64,000 bases of DNA from Massilibacillus massiliensis (lineage in GTDB: Bacteria; Bacillota; Negativicutes; FLKF01): the NCBI RefSeq assembly GCF_900086705.1, contig NZ_LT575483.1, positions 3,229,516-3,293,515 on the forward strand, read 5' to 3'. A program made the position numbers and the translations under genes. Below the pieces are notes generated by a model. It saw only the letters and a program-made list of their open reading frames with translations, did not search any database and was not told where the DNA came from. Positions within the stretch are counted from its first letter, which is position 1. Each line of letters opens with the position of its first letter. Of this stretch, positions 5,643 through 60,898 are shown in pieces.

Positions 5643-5787
5643 ACAAAACATGCCAGGTTTTTAAAGGGATAGAGAGAGTTTTCTAAAAAAATTTGTTGCA
5701 ATTTTATATGCAAATATGTTATATAATGAGAGGTAGACAGAAACTGATGAATTTTATATTGAAAAATAAGGCTTGGTTTATAGTCAG
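5643..5787 (+). promoter_or_regulatory. CRISPR leader
   Basis: AT-rich stretch immediately before the first repeat. It holds a possible promoter, TTGCAA at 5696-5701 with TATATA/TATAAT at 5720-5727. The leader is placed on this side because the repeats at the opposite end are degenerate, as is usual for the leader-distal end. Confidence 0.65.
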
Positions 5788-8164
5788 ACTTCGAATTGAC
5801 TCATAATGAAATGTAAATTTAGCTGGATTAATCAAATGTGCTATGTGCGGTGCACTTCGAATTGACTCATAATGAAATGTAAATGAAAAACTATGAGCAA
5901 AGTCATTAACATAATCAGTAAACTTCGAATTGACTCATAATGAAATGTAAATCTGCGCGTTATTTACCATGCTTTGGTAACTTCTTTACTTCGAATTGAC
6001 TCATAATGAAATGTAAATTCCCATGCTTTTATGTAATGACCGTTTATTTTATAAACTTCGAATTGACTCATAATGAAATGTAAATGTCTATTTGCATAGA
6101 TGTTAGCAATATTAATTGCTCACTTCGAATTGACTCATAATGAAATGTAAATGGCCTTACAGAAATATCTTTTGACGCGAGACTACCTACTTCGAATTGA
6201 CTCATAATGAAATGTAAATAACGAGTGTGGGTTAAAAGATGATGACAGTATTTGCAACTTCGAATTGACTCATAATGAAATGTAAATATCTGCTTTTTAT
6301 CTAATAAGGTACATAAACGTTTATAACTTCGAATTGACTCATAATGAAATGTAAATGCTTATCAAAATGTTACTGATATGGCTAACAAATTAGAACTTCG
6401 AATTGACTCATAATGAAATGTAAATATGGTAAAAAGTACAACTTTCACTGGTGAAGGCCAAACTTCGAATTGACTCATAATGAAATGTAAATGTAAACGG
6501 TACTGAAAGTACTTTTTGGTTGCTGAAAACTTCGAATTGACTCATAATGAAATGTAAATCTGCAAAAACATCAACCTCATGGGACATGCTAGGTACACTT
6601 CGAATTGACTCATAATGAAATGTAAATCAAGAAATGTTCTTGTCTACTTCGGCTGATATTGCACTTCGAATTGACTCATAATGAAATGTAAATCTGGCGA
6701 AGCTGATTTCGAAACATATTACAGTTTGAACTTCGAATTGACTCATAATGAAATGTAAATTTAAGACATTTAAATAATTCAAATTTTTCAGCAATACTTC
6801 GAATTGACTCATAATGAAATGTAAATGCGGTAAGGAGCTTGCTTTTTTTAGTGCTTCTCGTACTTCGAATTGACTCATAATGAAATGTAAATATGGCCAT
6901 TTCCCACATATCATGATAGCGATTTTTAACTTCGAATTGACTCATAATGAAATGTAAATTGAAGCTGTACACTTTTTCGGTTTTACTCATTTCACCACTT
7001 CGAATTGACTCATAATGAAATGTAAATAAAGGTCGATATGAGGACGAAGCAGGGGCAAAGGAAACTTCGAATTGACTCATAATGAAATGTAAATCTAAAA
7101 TTACATTTACGGTTTAGCCGTCGTGTTCCAACTTCGAATTGACTCATAATGAAATGTAAATTACCAGACGGTAATTTATCAAAAGCGAAATCTTTCAACT
7201 TCGAATTGACTCATAATGAAATGTAAATTGATGGACGGTGGGTTGCCGCAATTTTTGGGATATGACTTCGAATTGACTCATAATGAAATGTAAATGCTGA
7301 ATTTTTTACTAATTCAGCAAACATTGTAAGAACTTCGAATTGACTCATAATGAAATGTAAATTAATGATTTAGGAATGTCTACACAAAATAGAGACTTAC
7401 TTCGAATTGACTCATAATGAAATGTAAATGATGAAGATGGATATAGATTTTTTGGTAGTTCCAGCACTTCGAATTGACTCATAATGAAATGTAAATCTTT
7501 TAGAAACGAAGATTATGCTTTAGGTTTTTTGGACTTCGAATTGACTCATAATGAAATGTAAATTCGGATCTATGTAAGCAGTGAATTCAATTGGCACCGA
7601 CTTCGAATTGACTCATAATGAAATGTAAATTAACACCGACATCATTCGATGTAACCACACGTGCGAACTTCGAATTGACTCATAATGAAATGTAAATTGA
7701 TTTTATTGACTTTTCGCCATACATATGCTATAACTTCGAATTGACTCATAATGAAATGTAAATGAAGAAGCGAACAATGAAGCTGTTAAGGAAAAGCATA
7801 CTTCGAATTGACTCATAATGAAATGTAAATAAAGAAGTTTTTGAGATCACAAAACAGCTAGAGAATACTTCGAATTGACTCATAATGAAATGTAAATATT
7901 GAGCTTCTATGCTTGTATCGTGTTGCTTGTCAGAACTTCGAATTGACTCATAATGAAATGTAAATGCGGTTGGCCAAGTTGGCTCTGTAGATGCTGTTGT
8001 GACTTCGAATTGACTCATAATGAAATGTAAATTGGGAAGATAGCGGGACTTGTACACTGTATCTAGAACTTCGAATTGGCTCATAATGAAATGTAAATAG
8101 ATGTACATTAGATTCTGGTGGCAATGTTACTACACTCCGAATCGGCTCATAATGAAATGTAAAT
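5788..8164 (+). CRISPR. CRISPR array, 36 repeats and 35 spacers, no cas genes in window
   Basis: A 31-base repeat beginning ACTTCGAATT and ending ATGTAAAT occurs 36 times, starting at 5788, 5854, 5922, 5988 and so on to 8068 and 8134, with a period of 66-69. Spacers are therefore 35-38 bases and all appear different. Repeats 1-34 look identical. Repeat 35 (8068) has one change (A to G at position 12), and repeat 36 (8134) has that change plus two more (T to C at positions 4 and 10). This marks the right side as the old, leader-distal end and gives + orientation. The repeat length and its 3' end, giving an 8-base handle ATGTAAAT, resemble subtype I-B repeats, but with no Cas protein in the window the type is unproven. 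Apparent minus-strand ORFs made of repeating TFHYESIRS/LHFIMSQFEV peptides are only translations of the array. Confidence 0.98.
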
Positions 8165-8271
8165 TTTTCAGTTGTCTTTTTTACATGTCTAAAAAGAGAG
8201 GATGCCTGATCGTTTTAATATGGATTCATATTGATTGGGGATTCTCACCTCCACATAGAAAAGACCTCCTA

Positions 8272-8388: not shown

Positions 8389-8417
8389 TTGTCGAAAAAA
8401 GAAAAATTTGTTATAAT
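8389..8417 (+). promoter_or_regulatory. Promoter of peptide module 1
   Basis: TTGTCG (8389-8394), a 17-base spacer and TATAAT (8412-8417). The conserved module starts at 8425, seven bases after the -10, as expected for a transcription start. Confidence 0.75.
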
Positions 8418-8495
8418 TTGTGCAGGTGCTACGATAACGATAGGCGGTTAGTTCCCATTTGCGATCCACTACGGTGGAGGAATGGGGGTGATGCC

Positions 8496-8561
8496 ATGAA
8501 TGATACAAACTTAACATTGTTATTTTTTATCATCCTGGTTTTTGCCATAAAAAAAGATTAA
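8496..8561 (+). CDS. 21-residue hydrophobic peptide, candidate type I toxin (copy 1)
   Basis: The peptide starts MNDTNLTLLFF and ends VFAIKKD: a short polar N-terminus, one 12-13-residue hydrophobic core and a Lys-Lys-Asp tail. That fits a single-span membrane peptide. The second copy, at 9778-9843, encodes exactly the same 21 residues, although two codons differ (AAC/AAT for Asn and GTT/GTC for Val), which indicates selection on the peptide. GGGGGTG lies seven bases before ATG 8496, and a tiny overlapping ATG-CCA-TGA at 8491 may couple translation. It does not resemble Hok, Fst/Ldr, TxpA/BsrG, Ibs, TisB or the known C. difficile toxins by eye. Toxicity is inferred, not shown. Confidence 0.7.
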   Translation: MNDTNLTLLFFIILVFAIKKD

Positions 8562-8640
8562 CCGCCCTGCTACCAACAATGCGATTAATCTTTTAAACGT
8601 ATAAACTTGGGAGCTAACCGTTTATCGGTAGCACCTTTTA
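8549..8640 (-). ncRNA. Antisense RNA of module 1 (candidate antitoxin)
   Basis: On the minus strand a promoter (TTGACA, 17 bases, TATGAT; 8676 to 8648) starts transcription near 8640. A perfect-looking intrinsic terminator ends it: the hairpin 8593-8553 is followed by seven T residues (complement of A 8549-8555). The product, about 92 bases, is fully complementary to the 3' part of the peptide message, including the last codons. The A-run that encodes Ile-Lys-Lys in the peptide is thus also the T-run of the antisense terminator. Confidence 0.7.
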
Positions 8641-8647
8641 TATGTTT

Positions 8648-8676
8648 ATCATAAAACATATAAATTATACTGTCAA
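8648..8676 (-). promoter_or_regulatory. Antisense promoter of module 1
   Basis: Read on the minus strand: TTGACA (8676-8671), a 17-base spacer and TATGAT (8653-8648). The same two hexamers with the same spacing recur at 9956-9928, although the spacer sequences differ. Confidence 0.75.
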
Positions 8677-9669: not shown

Positions 9670-9699
9670 TTGCTGTATTTTGACAACTTTTGCTATAAT
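9670..9699 (+). promoter_or_regulatory. Promoter of peptide module 2
   Basis: TTGCTG (9670-9675), an 18-base spacer and TATAAT (9694-9699). The conserved module begins at 9707, again seven bases after the -10. Confidence 0.7.
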
Positions 9700-9777
9700 G
9701 CAAATAGGTGCTACGATAACGATAGGCGGTTAGTTCCCATTCGCAATCCACTACGGTGGAGGAATGGGGGTGATGCC

Positions 9778-9843
9778 ATGAATGATACAAATTTAACATT
9801 GTTATTTTTTATCATCCTGGTCTTTGCCATAAAAAAAGATTAA
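9778..9843 (+). CDS. 21-residue hydrophobic peptide, candidate type I toxin (copy 2)
   Basis: Encodes the same peptide as 8496-8561, with two synonymous codon differences. It has the same GGGGGTG ribosome site inside a hairpin. See copy 1 for the composition and the limits of the toxin inference. Confidence 0.7.
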   Translation: MNDTNLTLLFFIILVFAIKKD

Positions 9844-9920
9844 CCGCCCTGCTCACAACAATGCGGTTAATCTAGTTTAATCACTTTTGGGAGCTAACCG
9901 TTTATCAGTAGCACCTTTTA
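9831..9920 (-). ncRNA. Antisense RNA of module 2 (candidate antitoxin)
   Basis: Starts near 9920 from the promoter at 9956-9928. It ends at the perfect 11-base-pair hairpin 9873-9837, followed by seven T residues on the minus strand (A-run 9831-9837). About 90 bases, fully complementary to the end of the peptide message. Confidence 0.7.
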
Positions 9921-9927
9921 TATTATT

Positions 9928-9956
9928 ATCATAATCGTAAAATTTCATACTGTCAA
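9928..9956 (-). promoter_or_regulatory. Antisense promoter of module 2
   Basis: Minus strand TTGACA (9956-9951), a 17-base spacer and TATGAT (9933-9928), the same layout as in module 1. Confidence 0.75.
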
Positions 9957-16480: not shown

Positions 16481-16518
16481 ATTAAGATAGTTTTATAGAT
16501 GATGAAGGAGTGATTAGA

Positions 16519-17163
16519 ATGTGGAAAAAAATAGAGAACTTGAAGACAATTTATGAAGGCGGTATGATTGTGATTGTCCGTGCGGATGATCCGGAAGATA
16601 CTTATAAAATTGCTGAAGCGGCCATCGCTGGTGGCGCAAGAGCTTTAGAGATCCCATTTGCAGTTCCTGATGTATTAAGTATTGTAAAAAAATTATCAGG
16701 TAAATATAGCAGCCAAGGCGTTGTTATCGGAGTAGGGACTGTTTTAGATGCGGAACATGCTGCTGCTGCACTGTTAGCTGGTGCAGAAATGTTAGTAAGT
16801 TCAAGCTTTGATGCTGGAATGATTCGTATGGCCAATCGTTATCAGGCAATTACGGTTTCTGGCGCAATGTCACCAACTGAAATTGCTGAGTCAATGGCAG
16901 CTGGTGCTGATATTATCAAATTATTCCCGGCAGATTTTTATGGAGCAAAATATGTAAAAACATTGCGGGCACCAATGCCGACTGCACCGCTTGTTCCATT
17001 CGGCGGTGTAACACCGGAAAATGTTGGTTCATGGTTCGAAGCTGGCTGCGTTGCTGTAGGCGTTGGCAGTTATATTACAAAAGCGCATAAAAAAGATGGA
17101 GACTACGGTAAAGTCACCAAAGCAGCAGAAACTTTCCTTGAAGCAATTAGAGCGGCTAGATAA
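16519..17163 (+). CDS. eda: KDPG/KHG aldolase family protein
   Basis: 214 residues from ATG 16519, which has AAGGAG eight bases upstream; a GTG at 16510 would overlap that site. Eda fold: IVRADDPEDTYKIAEA at the N-terminus, the general-base Glu in RALEIPF, IGVGTVLDAEHA, the Schiff-base Lys134 in ADIIKLFPAD and the phosphate-binding VPFGGVTPENVGSW plus VGVGSYI. It cleaves 2-keto-3-deoxy-6-phosphogluconate or 4-hydroxy-2-oxoglutarate type substrates to pyruvate. As the last member of the PTS locus it probably completes breakdown of the imported sugar acid. Confidence 0.9.
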   Translation: MWKKIENLKTIYEGGMIVIVRADDPEDTYKIAEAAIAGGARALEIPFAVPDVLSIVKKLSGKYSSQGVVIGVGTVLDAEHAAAALLAGAEMLVSSSFDAGMIRMANRYQAITVSGAMSPTEIAESMAAGADIIKLFPADFYGAKYVKTLRAPMPTAPLVPFGGVTPENVGSWFEAGCVAVGVGSYITKAHKKDGDYGKVTKAAETFLEAIRAAR

Positions 17164-17170
17164 ACTCTAT

Positions 17171-17336
17171 GGACAGATAGGCGGCGGGTCGGCGATAAGC
17201 ACCTATCTACGTCGTTGCATGAAGGTGCTGTTCGTCGACGTACACAAGTACGACTCCTTCACATCCCCTTCATGCGCGCCTAGTATCTAGGCACTTCTCA
17301 CCAACCGGCAACCTATCTTCGTACTAGTTTATAAGT
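17171..17336. repeat. Dispersed structured repeat family 1, copy 1
   Basis: Matches 60697-60861 along its length, and its right part also matches 51289-51373. It folds as a cruciform: outer GATAGG/CCTATC, an inner stem GCATGAAGG (17217-17225) with CCTTCATGC (17267-17275), and CGTAC/GTACG at the tip. In the other copy the inner stem has different bases on both sides that still pair. It lies just after the eda stop. It has no ORF. Confidence 0.8.
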
Positions 17337-17348
17337 GGAATCGATTTT

Positions 17349-17388
17349 AGCAACTCATATTCACTTTTGTGAATATGAGTTGCTTTGT
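17349..17388 (+). terminator. Terminator after repeat copy 1
   Basis: AGCAACTCATATTCAC (17349-17364) pairs perfectly with GTGAATATGAGTTGCT (17369-17384), followed by TTTGTTG. It probably ends the PTS operon. Confidence 0.8.
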
Positions 17389-17432: not shown

Positions 17433-17620
17433 TTGTTTTCGTTCTCCCGGCCTTTTCCGGAAAAATACGTTCCGAAGGATGAAAAATGATCGGCTTACGT
17501 TAAGAAATTCGCTTGTCTGAACGAAGTGAGTTTGTGAATTTTAGTAAGCCGATCATTTTTCAAGTATTTTGGAGGTTGGAGGCCTAGCCTTTTCGTTCTT
17601 TTGGGCAATGCCAAAAGGAC
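17433..17620. repeat. Dispersed structured repeat family 2, copy 1
   Basis: Close match to 26549-26734. It contains a perfect 18-base-pair stem, GAAAAATGATCGGCTTAC (17481-17498) with GTAAGCCGATCATTTTTC (17544-17561), and ends with CTTTTGG-gcaatg-CCAAAAG (about 17598-17617). Differences between the copies within the long stem are compensatory. No ORF. The remaining 170 bases up to the next gene hold nothing recognisable beyond AT-rich sequence. Confidence 0.8.
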
Positions 17621-17793
17621 ACCCACGTCTTTATTATTACATTAGAATTTTTATAAATATCCTGATGTAATGTGTCCATTTTTTATCTGTATAAATCGAC
17701 AGGATATTTGGCAAAGCTATAATTTTGGTGTATGATTAATAATTAGAGTAAGGGTTTAATTTATTATGATTTAGAACGGGGGCGTATCGTAAA

Positions 17794-26523: not shown

Positions 26524-26563
26524 GGAGACGAACTAAAATTCAGCAACTTTTGTTTTCGTCTCC
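26524..26563 (+). terminator. Hairpin downstream of the hydrogenase operon
   Basis: GGAGACGAA (26524-26532) pairs with TTCGTCTCC (26555-26563). It abuts repeat family 2 copy 2. Termination is likely but the T-run is interrupted. Confidence 0.5.
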
Positions 26564-26734
26564 GGCCTTTTCCGGAAAAACACGTTCCGTAGGATGAAAA
26601 AAGATCGACTTACGTAAAGAAATCCGTTTGCTTGAGCGCAGTGAGTTAAGGATTTTAGTAAGTTGATCTTTTTTCAAGTGTTTTGGAGGCTTAAGGCCTA
26701 GCCTTTTCGTTCTTTTGGGCAATGCCAAAAGGAC
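26549..26734. repeat. Dispersed structured repeat family 2, copy 2
   Basis: Second copy of the element at 17433-17620. Its main stem is GAAAAAAGATCGACTTAC (26596-26613) with GTAAGTTGATCTTTTTTC (26658-26675), 18 pairs including one G-U. The end hairpin CTTTTGG-gcaatg-CCAAAAG is identical to copy 1. It lies between the hydrogenase and LysR genes; the other 270 bases before the LysR gene show no feature. Confidence 0.8.
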
Positions 26735-27003
26735 CTCTATGTATGTATGCATTAAGAGCTTCATAGGTAAAGTTTTATTGCGATATTTCTTTTTCTTGTT
26801 ATAGCAAATAGAATAAAATTTTTCTATTACCAGGGAAATATTTATAATTTTATAACAGATTTTAGCAAACTTTGATAAAGCAAACGCTATTGCAGACGGA
26901 AGATTAAGAGGTAATTTTTAGTAGCGATAAACACAGAATGATGATAAAATAAACAGGAAAATTATCTGACCAATATAGGCTGCGTGTAGTAGAAGGTGAA
27001 AAA

Positions 27004-27985: not shown

Positions 27986-28035
27986 ATAAAGCATGAAAAG
28001 AATTGATCCGCGGATCAATTCTTTTCATGCTTTAT
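27986..28035. terminator. Bidirectional terminator, perfect 50-base palindrome
   Basis: Two 25-base arms meet at 28010/28011 (centre GATCCG|CGGATC) with no loop and no mismatch; the ends are ATAAAGC/GCTTTAT. It separates two convergent LysR genes, and the stop codon of the minus-strand gene lies inside it. Confidence 0.85.
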
Positions 28036-28927
28036 TTGGATATCTGTTTTTAAAATGCTGTTTACAAAGTTTTAACCATTCACGTGTCGCGAAGGACTGA
28101 TATTTATTTTTCTTCCATATAATTGCTAAATTCCAGGGAATTGATGCGTTATTAAGTGGGATATTGATGCATTTTTTATCGTCTAATTCCTTGCAGATTG
28201 TTTCCGGGAGTAAAGCAATGCCTAAGCGGGCATTTACTGTCTCAGCGATAAAATCCCATTGTGAACTTTGGCATACGATGTTTGGGGAAAAGTTATTTTT
28301 TTGGCATTCTTTATAGATCAGTCCGTTCAGCGAAAAATCGTTACTGTAGAGAATAAAATCTTCATCTTTCAATTCAGCTAAGCTAAGAGTAGCACGATTT
28401 GCCAGTGGATGGTCTATCGGTAGTACGGCTCTTAATTCTTCTTTGACGAAAGTAAAGCTTTCAATTTCGCTTTCGGTCAGCGGCAAGGCAATTACGCCGA
28501 TATCAAGCAGCCCGTTTTTTACATCAAGTTCTACTTGCTTTGATCCCACTTCAATTAATTTTAACATAACTTGTGGATAGGCCTTTTTAAAGGCACCAAT
28601 TACACTGGGGAAAAAGCGTGAACCAACCATAGGGGGAAGTCCGATTGTAATTTCACCATGCTTAATGTTTACGACATCGTGGATTTCACTAGATAAATCA
28701 TGAAATTCACTCACGACACTTTGTGCACGTTTAAATACCGCTTTTCCCACATCCGTAAGTTCTATCTCACGCCCAAGTCGTTCAAACAGAGTTACGCCAA
28801 GCTCATTTTCCAGTGTTTTAATAACCTTACTGATCGAAGGCTGGCTGACATGCAGGAATTGTGAAGCCTTTGTGAAACTTTTTTGTCTGGCAACTTCAAT
28901 GAAATAGGTCAAATGCAAGATATCCAT
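28025..28927 (-). CDS. LysR-family regulator, divergent from lrgAB (CidR-like position)
   Basis: 300 residues: HTH (MDILHLTYFIEVARQKSFT, SQPSISKVIKTLE) and an effector-binding domain. It is divergently transcribed from lrgA with a 236-base gap that holds a perfect 12-3-12 inverted repeat at 29068-29094. A LysR regulator next to cid/lrg genes is known from CidR of Staphylococcus, so control of lrgAB is the likely role. AGGTGCC-type ribosome site on the minus strand. The last codons lie in the 50-base palindrome. Confidence 0.9.
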   Translation of the reverse strand: MDILHLTYFIEVARQKSFTKASQFLHVSQPSISKVIKTLENELGVTLFERLGREIELTDVGKAVFKRAQSVVSEFHDLSSEIHDVVNIKHGEITIGLPPMVGSRFFPSVIGAFKKAYPQVMLKLIEVGSKQVELDVKNGLLDIGVIALPLTESEIESFTFVKEELRAVLPIDHPLANRATLSLAELKDEDFILYSNDFSLNGLIYKECQKNNFSPNIVCQSSQWDFIAETVNARLGIALLPETICKELDDKKCINIPLNNASIPWNLAIIWKKNKYQSFATREWLKLCKQHFKNRYPNKA

Positions 28928-48488: not shown

Positions 48489-48584
48489 CGACTTTTAAAC
48501 AAACTAAAATAATTATATCGATAGATCAGGAAATCGCAAAATCGGTTCCTCTTATAAACGAGTACGAAGATAGGTTTTATATAA

Positions 48585-51284: not shown

Positions 51285-51288
51285 ATAG

Positions 51289-51373
51289 ATAAACTAGTAC
51301 GAAGATAGGCCGCGGATCGGTGAGAACTTCTCACTAACCAACAGCCTATCTTCGTACTAGTTTATAAGTGGAG
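51289..51373. repeat. Dispersed repeat family 1, short hairpin variant
   Basis: Right part (from CTTCTCAC to TTATAAGTGGA) matches the right ends of 17171-17336 and 60697-60861. The left part is the exact complement: 22-base arms 51289-51310 and 51344-51365 pair perfectly (ATAAACTAGTACGAAG.../...CTTCGTACTAGTTTAT), with a smaller GTGAGAA-c-TTCTCAC hairpin inside. Confidence 0.75.
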
Positions 51374-51400
51374 CAGATGCTAATGTTGGGGATAGAAATT

Positions 51401-60195: not shown

Positions 60196-60687
60196 ATGGT
60201 AAGATTGCGCTGCTGTGGAATTGTGGATGATTTTCCTGCGTGTAGAAAATTTTCTAGCCATATTGATAATGAAAAAGCGGTTACGCTTCATTATGAAGAG
60301 TTTGAAGCAATTCGATTAAAAGATTATAAAGGGCTAGAGCAGACAGAAGCTGCCGAAATGATGGGGTTATCCCGCCCAACTTTTCAGCGCATATTGCAAT
60401 CTGCCAAGAAAAAAATTGCGACTGCGCTGATTGAGGGACAAAACATATTAATTGAAGGGGGAAATTATAAAATGGCAAATCGTACGTTTGAATGTCAAGA
60501 ATGCAAGCATGTCTGGGAAGTGCCGCCTTGCACAGAAGGTGGAAAACATGGCTATGAGCTGGAGTGCCCTAAATGCGGGAGTATGAAAAAAATTAAATTA
60601 GAAAATGGTGTGCGCCATGTTTGCAGCGGCGGACATCATGATGAACATGGTAGCAGTGGATGTTGCGGCGGGCATCATCATGGATAA
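60196..60687 (+). CDS. DUF134 DNA-binding protein fused to a zinc-ribbon and His/Cys-rich tail
   Basis: 163 residues. N-terminal UPF0251/DUF134 domain (about 1-90): LRCCGIVDDFPACRKFSSH and the HTH LEQTEAAEMMGLSRPTFQRI. A zinc ribbon follows, CQECKHVWEVPPC and CPKCGSMKKI (about 98-133), and a tail rich in His, Gly and Cys (GGHHDEHGSSGCCGGHHHG). The His/Cys tail suggests metal sensing or storage. It is likely a metal- or redox-responsive regulator; the operator at 60165 supports self-control. GGAGG precedes ATG. No partner gene in the same unit. Confidence 0.88.
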   Translation: MVRLRCCGIVDDFPACRKFSSHIDNEKAVTLHYEEFEAIRLKDYKGLEQTEAAEMMGLSRPTFQRILQSAKKKIATALIEGQNILIEGGNYKMANRTFECQECKHVWEVPPCTEGGKHGYELECPKCGSMKKIKLENGVRHVCSGGHHDEHGSSGCCGGHHHG

Positions 60688-60696
60688 GTAAATTAG

Positions 60697-60861
60697 GGAC
60701 AGATAGGTGGCGGGTCGGCGATAAGCGCTCATCTGCGTCGTTACAGTAAGGGGTTGTTCGTCGACGTACGAATGTACGACTCCTTCACAACCCCTTACTG
60801 TGCCTAGCATCTGACCACTTCTCACCAACCGGCAACCTATCTTCGTGCTAGTTTATAAGTG
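60697..60861. repeat. Dispersed structured repeat family 1, copy 2
   Basis: Second full copy of the element at 17171-17336. The inner stem is a perfect 15-base pair helix, ACAGTAAGGGGTTGT (60743-60757) with ACAACCCCTTACTGT (60787-60801). At three positions both sides differ from copy 1 and still pair. It lies 10 bases after the DUF134 stop. Confidence 0.8.
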
Positions 60862-60866
60862 AAATG

Positions 60867-60898
60867 AATTTAACTATTTATTAATAAATAGTTAAATT
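60867..60898. terminator. Perfect 32-base AT-rich palindrome
   Basis: AATTTAACTATTTATT (60867-60882) joins directly to its complement (60883-60898). May be a terminator or operator. Confidence 0.5.

Follow-up and report, generated by a model that had tools for sequence, protein, structure and literature searches.

A dispersed, covarying hairpin found in about a dozen bacterial phyla is possibly mobilized in trans

Dispersed palindromic repeats are common, and their mode of spread has been explained for few families. HEARO RNA and similar mobile-element RNAs have a structured strand and dispersed copies. IS5-group elements duplicate TNA, and arm-to-arm repair and template switching are known in quasi-palindromes. 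REPs tagged with GTAG or with CGTC have been described, the latter without a transposase (Di Nocera 2013, PMC3733652). In Geobacter metallireducens, 24 short RNA elements with the central palindrome GRCGTAGCGCTGCTACGCC were predicted in intergenic regions (Aklujkar 2009, PMC2700814), and they are also reported from G. sulfurreducens, G. uraniireducens, and Desulfotalea (PMC2700814, Additional file 4 Figure S1).

The element described here was noticed in a 64,000-nucleotide stretch of the Massilibacillus massiliensis genome (the window). It is a dispersed quasi-palindrome of about 120 to 160 nt that contains no gene. One of its strands, minus in the window, forms a long hairpin; the internal loop of this hairpin, CAGATGCNAGGCG opposite CAACGACGCAGATG, is conserved, and its apex is CGTAC-N4-GTACG. 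An earlier note, made from the sequence, listed two full copies, and direct reading proved both of them real. Copy 1 lies at 17171-17336 (right end 17334/17336) and was also seen by BLAST and a covariance model; copy 2 lies at 60697-60861 (right end 60858/60861) and was also seen by folding and a covariance model. Both are on the minus strand, which for copy 1 is the best-folding strand with G-U tolerated. The note's central claim, that three pairs of the inner stem have changed on both sides and still pair, was confirmed by reading both sequences. In copy 1, GCATGAAGG (17217-17225) pairs with CCTTCATGC (17267-17275), and in copy 2, ACAGTAAGG (60743-60751) pairs with CCTTACTGT (60793-60801). 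From one copy to the other, G-C becomes A-T, T-A becomes G-C, and G-C becomes T-A, all of them Watson-Crick pairs. The placement directly past a stop codon also holds, with same-direction open reading frames on the plus strand ending 7 nt before copy 1 (16510-17163) and 9 nt before copy 2 (60196-60687). In single-strand folding, the energies of copies 1 and 2 have z-scores of -7.4 and -7.1, and none of 200 dinucleotide shuffles was as good.

Two reduced forms are present in the window. Repeat search and the covariance model found an internal-deletion derivative at 51287-51380 (covariance-model match 51299-51367), with the outer arms fused and the middle gone, and a solo outer end of 39 nt lies on the minus strand at 48538-48576, 92% complementary to 17310-17348. 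By direct reading, copy 1 is followed on the plus strand by a perfect hairpin, AGCAACTCATATTCAC-TTTT-GTGAATATGAGTTGCT (17349-17384), and copy 2 by an A+T-rich one (60869-60896). Hairpins of the former kind follow many copies in the same genome, and their lower stem varies yet stays complementary; in those about 20 to 60 nt past the copies, the upper stem TATTCAC/GTGAATA is conserved and the lower stem is hypervariable.

The window has other repeats. A CRISPR-like array at 5787-8170 contains about 36 copies of ACTTCGAATTGACTCATAATGAAATGTAAAT at a spacing of 66 to 69 nt, and directly past it is a duplicated block (8407-8676 and 9689-9956; 83 to 92% identical, about 1280 nt apart). Another dispersed repeat, about 190 nt long and beginning with CCGGCCTTTTCCGGAAAAA, is found at 17447-17634 and 26562-26748 (84 to 87% identical), and a similar start follows one further copy of the hairpin element in the genome (L011). 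A perfect 25-nt palindrome with no spacer lies at 27986-28035, at the 3' end of the open reading frame 28025-28927.

Covariance model R1 found no fewer than 55 full copies in the M. massiliensis genome, besides several internal-deletion derivatives; BLAST gave 40 scored matches there. A Massilibacillus-type genome (G001) has relatives of similar length, and genome G016 has relatives at 70 to 75% identity. Forty-seven of the 55 copies come after a gene pointing at them, and in 37 of these the stop codon of that gene is no more than 25 nt away; the gap on the right-hand side has a median of 179 nt. A replication-strand bias was seen that is inseparable from the gene-direction bias. On contig C6, the first 0.9 Mb is without full copies, and the element strand is mostly minus from 1.16 to 2.1 Mb and mostly plus beyond, tracking local GC skew.

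A gapped exact pattern on both arms, used for the wide search, matched 102 stretches in about a dozen phyla, including one candidate phylum. By genome label, the matches come from Myxococcales, Desulfovibrio and other deltaproteobacteria, Rokubacteria, Bdellovibrio, Chloroflexi, Dormibacteraeota, Acidobacteria, Gemmatimonadetes, Nitrospira, Alphaproteobacteria, Roseateles (Betaproteobacteria), Kaiserbacteria, and Sporomusa/Pelosinus/Massilibacillus. Model R2, trained on the M. massiliensis family and near relatives only, recovers such loci at E-values from 1e-25 to 6e-4. With the pan model R3, 119 of 380 class genomes and 54 of 398 phylum genomes proved to contain members, and in alignments at several of these loci the internal loop and apex recur. 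The wide searches scored only the best candidates per genome, and copy numbers there are lower bounds. In several class genomes, copies (L096, L101, and L116, around position 1501) lie in the ribosomal spacer directly before the 23S rRNA gene, and a Pelosinus metagenome-assembled genome (MAG) has three copies within 1 kb (L163, 3345-4267) beside tRNA-like sequence.

The earlier note took the paired changes as a hint of a selected structure, either RNA or DNA recognized by a protein, and named extra copies without covariation as the result that would speak against it. What we found supports selection: further copies covary, in the M. massiliensis family and across phyla. When 68 copies were aligned in reverse-complement orientation (alignment A2), one long hairpin resulted, with 97.5% of pair cells paired versus 27 to 49% in slid controls. 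Changes on both sides were seen in 25 of 52 pairs and in 129 cells (22 in shuffles), and 0 of 500 shuffles reached the observed values. We also wrote a tree-aware null for this analysis, in which the tree and each column's count of changes stay fixed. Under this null, significance was reached by 2 of 7503 column pairs; both belong to the inner stem first noted, and none lies elsewhere. The three named pairs correspond to columns 60-127, 63-124, and 67-123, and the one of the three that was not significant ranks next best. The two-copy view can be extended, as covariation reaches into the outer arms and the best pairing is on the opposite strand. Across phyla, the arms of 101 sequences aligned ungapped gave 11 significant column pairs, all 11 in the helix; one arm part was excluded from this test because the search pattern fixes it. 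A structure-fitted pan alignment had 1059 two-sided cells versus 329 shuffled and 126 to 214 slid, a count biased towards structure in a way that the ungapped arm test is not. These results show that the fold is maintained by compensatory and wobble changes. In every phylum, CAGATG stands opposite CAGATG as a conserved mismatch, which we read as tandem G-A.

The strand that folds can be told from one-sided pair changes. Read on the reverse complement, these amount to 336 G-U against 34 A-C in the M. massiliensis family, and to about 162 G-U against about 28 A-C across phyla (arm pairs 2 to 17 summed). It is the reverse complement that carries the structure, and this polarity holds across phyla. 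In the pan-phylum set, neither orientation to the flanking genes prevails (23 and 22 tandem cases each way), and transcription-linked mutation bias therefore does not explain the polarity. A G-U count far above A-C fits RNA, but DNA energy parameters favor the same strand as RNA parameters do, and the energy models are therefore not decisive between RNA and single-stranded DNA.

The clearest insertion signatures come from a Bdellovibrio MAG (G380, locus L127) with 11 intact copies of 121 to 123 bp that are on average 96.9% identical. All 11 have an identical 3-mer on both sides (TAA in seven, TTA in four), a perfect 3-bp duplication, and carry the inverted ends GRGCCTATCCCAAAAC. All of them directly adjoin one or more stop codons, and 10 lie between convergent genes. 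In some of them, read from the sequence, the element supplies with its terminal G or C the missing letter of a TAG stop, and the gene is therefore unharmed. An alphaproteobacterial copy (L186) likewise has TTA on both sides. In the window lineage (M. massiliensis and G001), direct repeats between the two flanks go beyond the 99% null in 11 of 66 copies, and in 10 of these the flanking repeat is a whole hairpin at near-constant positions. Several of the duplicated hairpins are followed by Ts, like terminators, and they mostly end 11 to 21 nt before the core and start 61 to 65 nt after it. These near-constant hairpins mark a larger unit of about 245 nt, ending in TTTGTCTACAGTCTG. The duplications thus differ, 3 bp in the Bdellovibrio lineage versus a terminator hairpin in the window lineage. 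With stop-codon sites in the former and terminator sites in the latter, insertion is directed to gene ends in both. Judged from these junctions, the element moves, and the two lineages are those in which movement is shown.

The earlier note suggested looking for a transposase with matching terminal hairpins; we sought one and did not find it. No Y1_Tnp/RAYT gene is flanked by full copies, and genome G053, near-complete and copy-rich, has a fragment only. One of the four Y1_Tnp genes of M. massiliensis has an 82-nt partial copy nearby, and the 84.6 kb surrounding 26 Y1_Tnp places of other genomes contained 2 matches. The M. massiliensis Y1 transposase genes (L222, L223, and L224) are accompanied by long inverted repeats such as GGGACGAGGGGACAGGTTTACTGTCCC. 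In the Bdellovibrio MAG, whose assembly may be incomplete, no insertion sequence had the element ends with 0 to 3 mismatches, and the end sequence was intact in the copies only. A near match to the ends at C24:16771 was rejected, as it lies in a coding region and is without a paired end; DDE_Tnp_1 genes are present in this MAG but were rejected as parents, as their inverted repeats are unlike the element ends. Reverse transcriptase genes (RVT_1) are present in five of ten tested copy-bearing genomes (G000, G001, G053, G315, and G380) and gave no match in the other five (G319, G304, G322, G473, and G435). SINE-like retrotransposition was rejected on this count, though it may have acted in the past. 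None of the genomes searched, that of M. massiliensis and the Bdellovibrio MAG included, yielded an autonomous element whose ends match. IMG/VR viral contigs and plasmids gave no family match either, which is odd for an active mobile element.

Our main reading, to which we give a probability of roughly 0.55, is a non-autonomous mobile hairpin that is mobilized in trans and propagated through its folded strand. Copies would spread through an enzyme that recognizes the folded strand or the inverted ends, and only copies that fold would keep being multiplied; the structure would therefore covary in a repeat without a fixed host gene. Insertions at stop codons would survive because the target is doubled and a stop can be restored by the terminal G and C (TA|G...C|TA). 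Against this reading stand the missing partner, the two signatures in two lineages, and the restriction of observed movement to these. A broader proposal, which we put forward tentatively, is that the family may be a pan-bacterial, gene-less mobile structured nucleic acid whose folded strand is recognized, with its shape and one internal loop conserved in about a dozen phyla. It would land harmlessly at stop codons and terminators, and its mobilizer may be of a new kind.

The likeliest alternative, which we consider unlikely on the whole, is a structured RNA with a host function, such as a small RNA or an element that protects or terminates 3' ends, spread by duplication and kept as useful at gene ends. 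The excess of G-U over A-C is typical of RNA, tandem G-A opposite G-A fits it, and the copies are located at gene ends. In several lineages, both strands have the hairpin followed by CTTTTT, like a two-way terminator, but this T-run is missing from the M. massiliensis and the Chloroflexi/Dormibacteria copies. In M. massiliensis, moreover, the gene upstream of 47 of the 55 copies runs antisense to the structured strand, and the promoter of that gene would therefore not make the structured RNA. The neighboring genes of the two window copies looked unrelated, and recent near-identical copies with target duplications point to self-propagation rather than host use.

The 3-bp duplications of TAA or TTA and the inverted ends in all 11 Bdellovibrio copies, with the like signature of the alphaproteobacterial copy, would fit a MITE moved by an ordinary IS5-type insertion sequence; here the inverted ends would suffice and the inner hairpin would be passive cargo. 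We consider this account improbable. The Bdellovibrio MAG yielded no parent bearing these ends, the account leaves the strand polarity and the conservation of inner loop and apex across phyla unexplained, and the window lineage has the other signature, duplicated terminator hairpins. Least probable by far, and already disfavored, is an origin without selection, in which template switching or arm-to-arm repair homogenizes the arms and so produces two-sided changes: in 10 of the 11 Bdellovibrio copies, one terminal pair did switch as a unit, from A-T to G-C, but homogenization would erase the conserved CAGATG/CAGATG mismatches and would not give a G-U excess on one fixed strand, and simple arm-to-arm copying is therefore disfavored by these mismatches and the wobble intermediates.

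The family combines strong covariation, a defined strand, clear insertion signatures, and a range of about a dozen phyla, and its alignment and model are ready for use in finding the mobilizing enzyme. It also shows that, where a dispersed repeat carries compensatory changes, what has been selected can be its ability to be copied and not an RNA function for the host. Annotation of gene ends is affected as well, with copies directly at stop codons and terminators.

Rfam had no match in the window at the gathering score and, at relaxed thresholds, nothing convincing on the elements, which sets the family apart from the HEARO and other mobile-element RNAs included there. In the literature, exact motif queries matched unrelated primers only, and concept queries returned nothing on this family; earlier notice of it seems to be confined to Geobacter. 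The Geobacter palindrome GRCGTAGCGCTGCTACGCC resembles the apex CGTAC-N4-GTACG, and CGTAGCGCTGCTACG is present in the alphaproteobacterial copy L186. The G. metallireducens elements likely belong to this hairpin family, as compared by the central palindrome. They are reported from a few deltaproteobacteria, in a text (PMC2700814) that mentions neither covariation nor strand polarity and describes no insertion signatures or broader distribution. Like REP/REPIN sequences with their RAYT (TnpA-REP), the family is dispersed, non-autonomous, palindromic, high in copy number, and mostly 3' of genes, and the REP/REPIN mode, recognition of one folded strand, would fit its polarity. Unlike them, it is one hairpin of 120 to 160 nt rather than a unit of 20 to 40 nt and has target duplications and no link to a Y1 transposase. 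GTAG at the hairpin foot is not conserved in our alignments; with this, the unit length, and no RAYT gene flanked by repeats, we rejected membership in the GTAG superfamily. CGTC-tagged REPs share with it dispersed palindromes in several phyla and no dedicated transposase (PMC3733652), but they are units of 20 to 40 nt with the tag at one end, whereas this family has its conserved motifs inside a long hairpin. Membership there was rejected as well, CGTC lying within the arm (CTGCGTCGTT) and not unpaired at the end. In two lineages, the family has inverted ends and the 3-bp TAA/TTA duplication in common with IS5-type MITEs; it differs in a core hairpin common to phyla, lineage-specific ends, and no parent element found. 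Dispersed, non-autonomous palindromic elements are already known, and what is new here is the breadth, the strand polarity, the conserved internal loop, and the insertion at stop codons and terminators.
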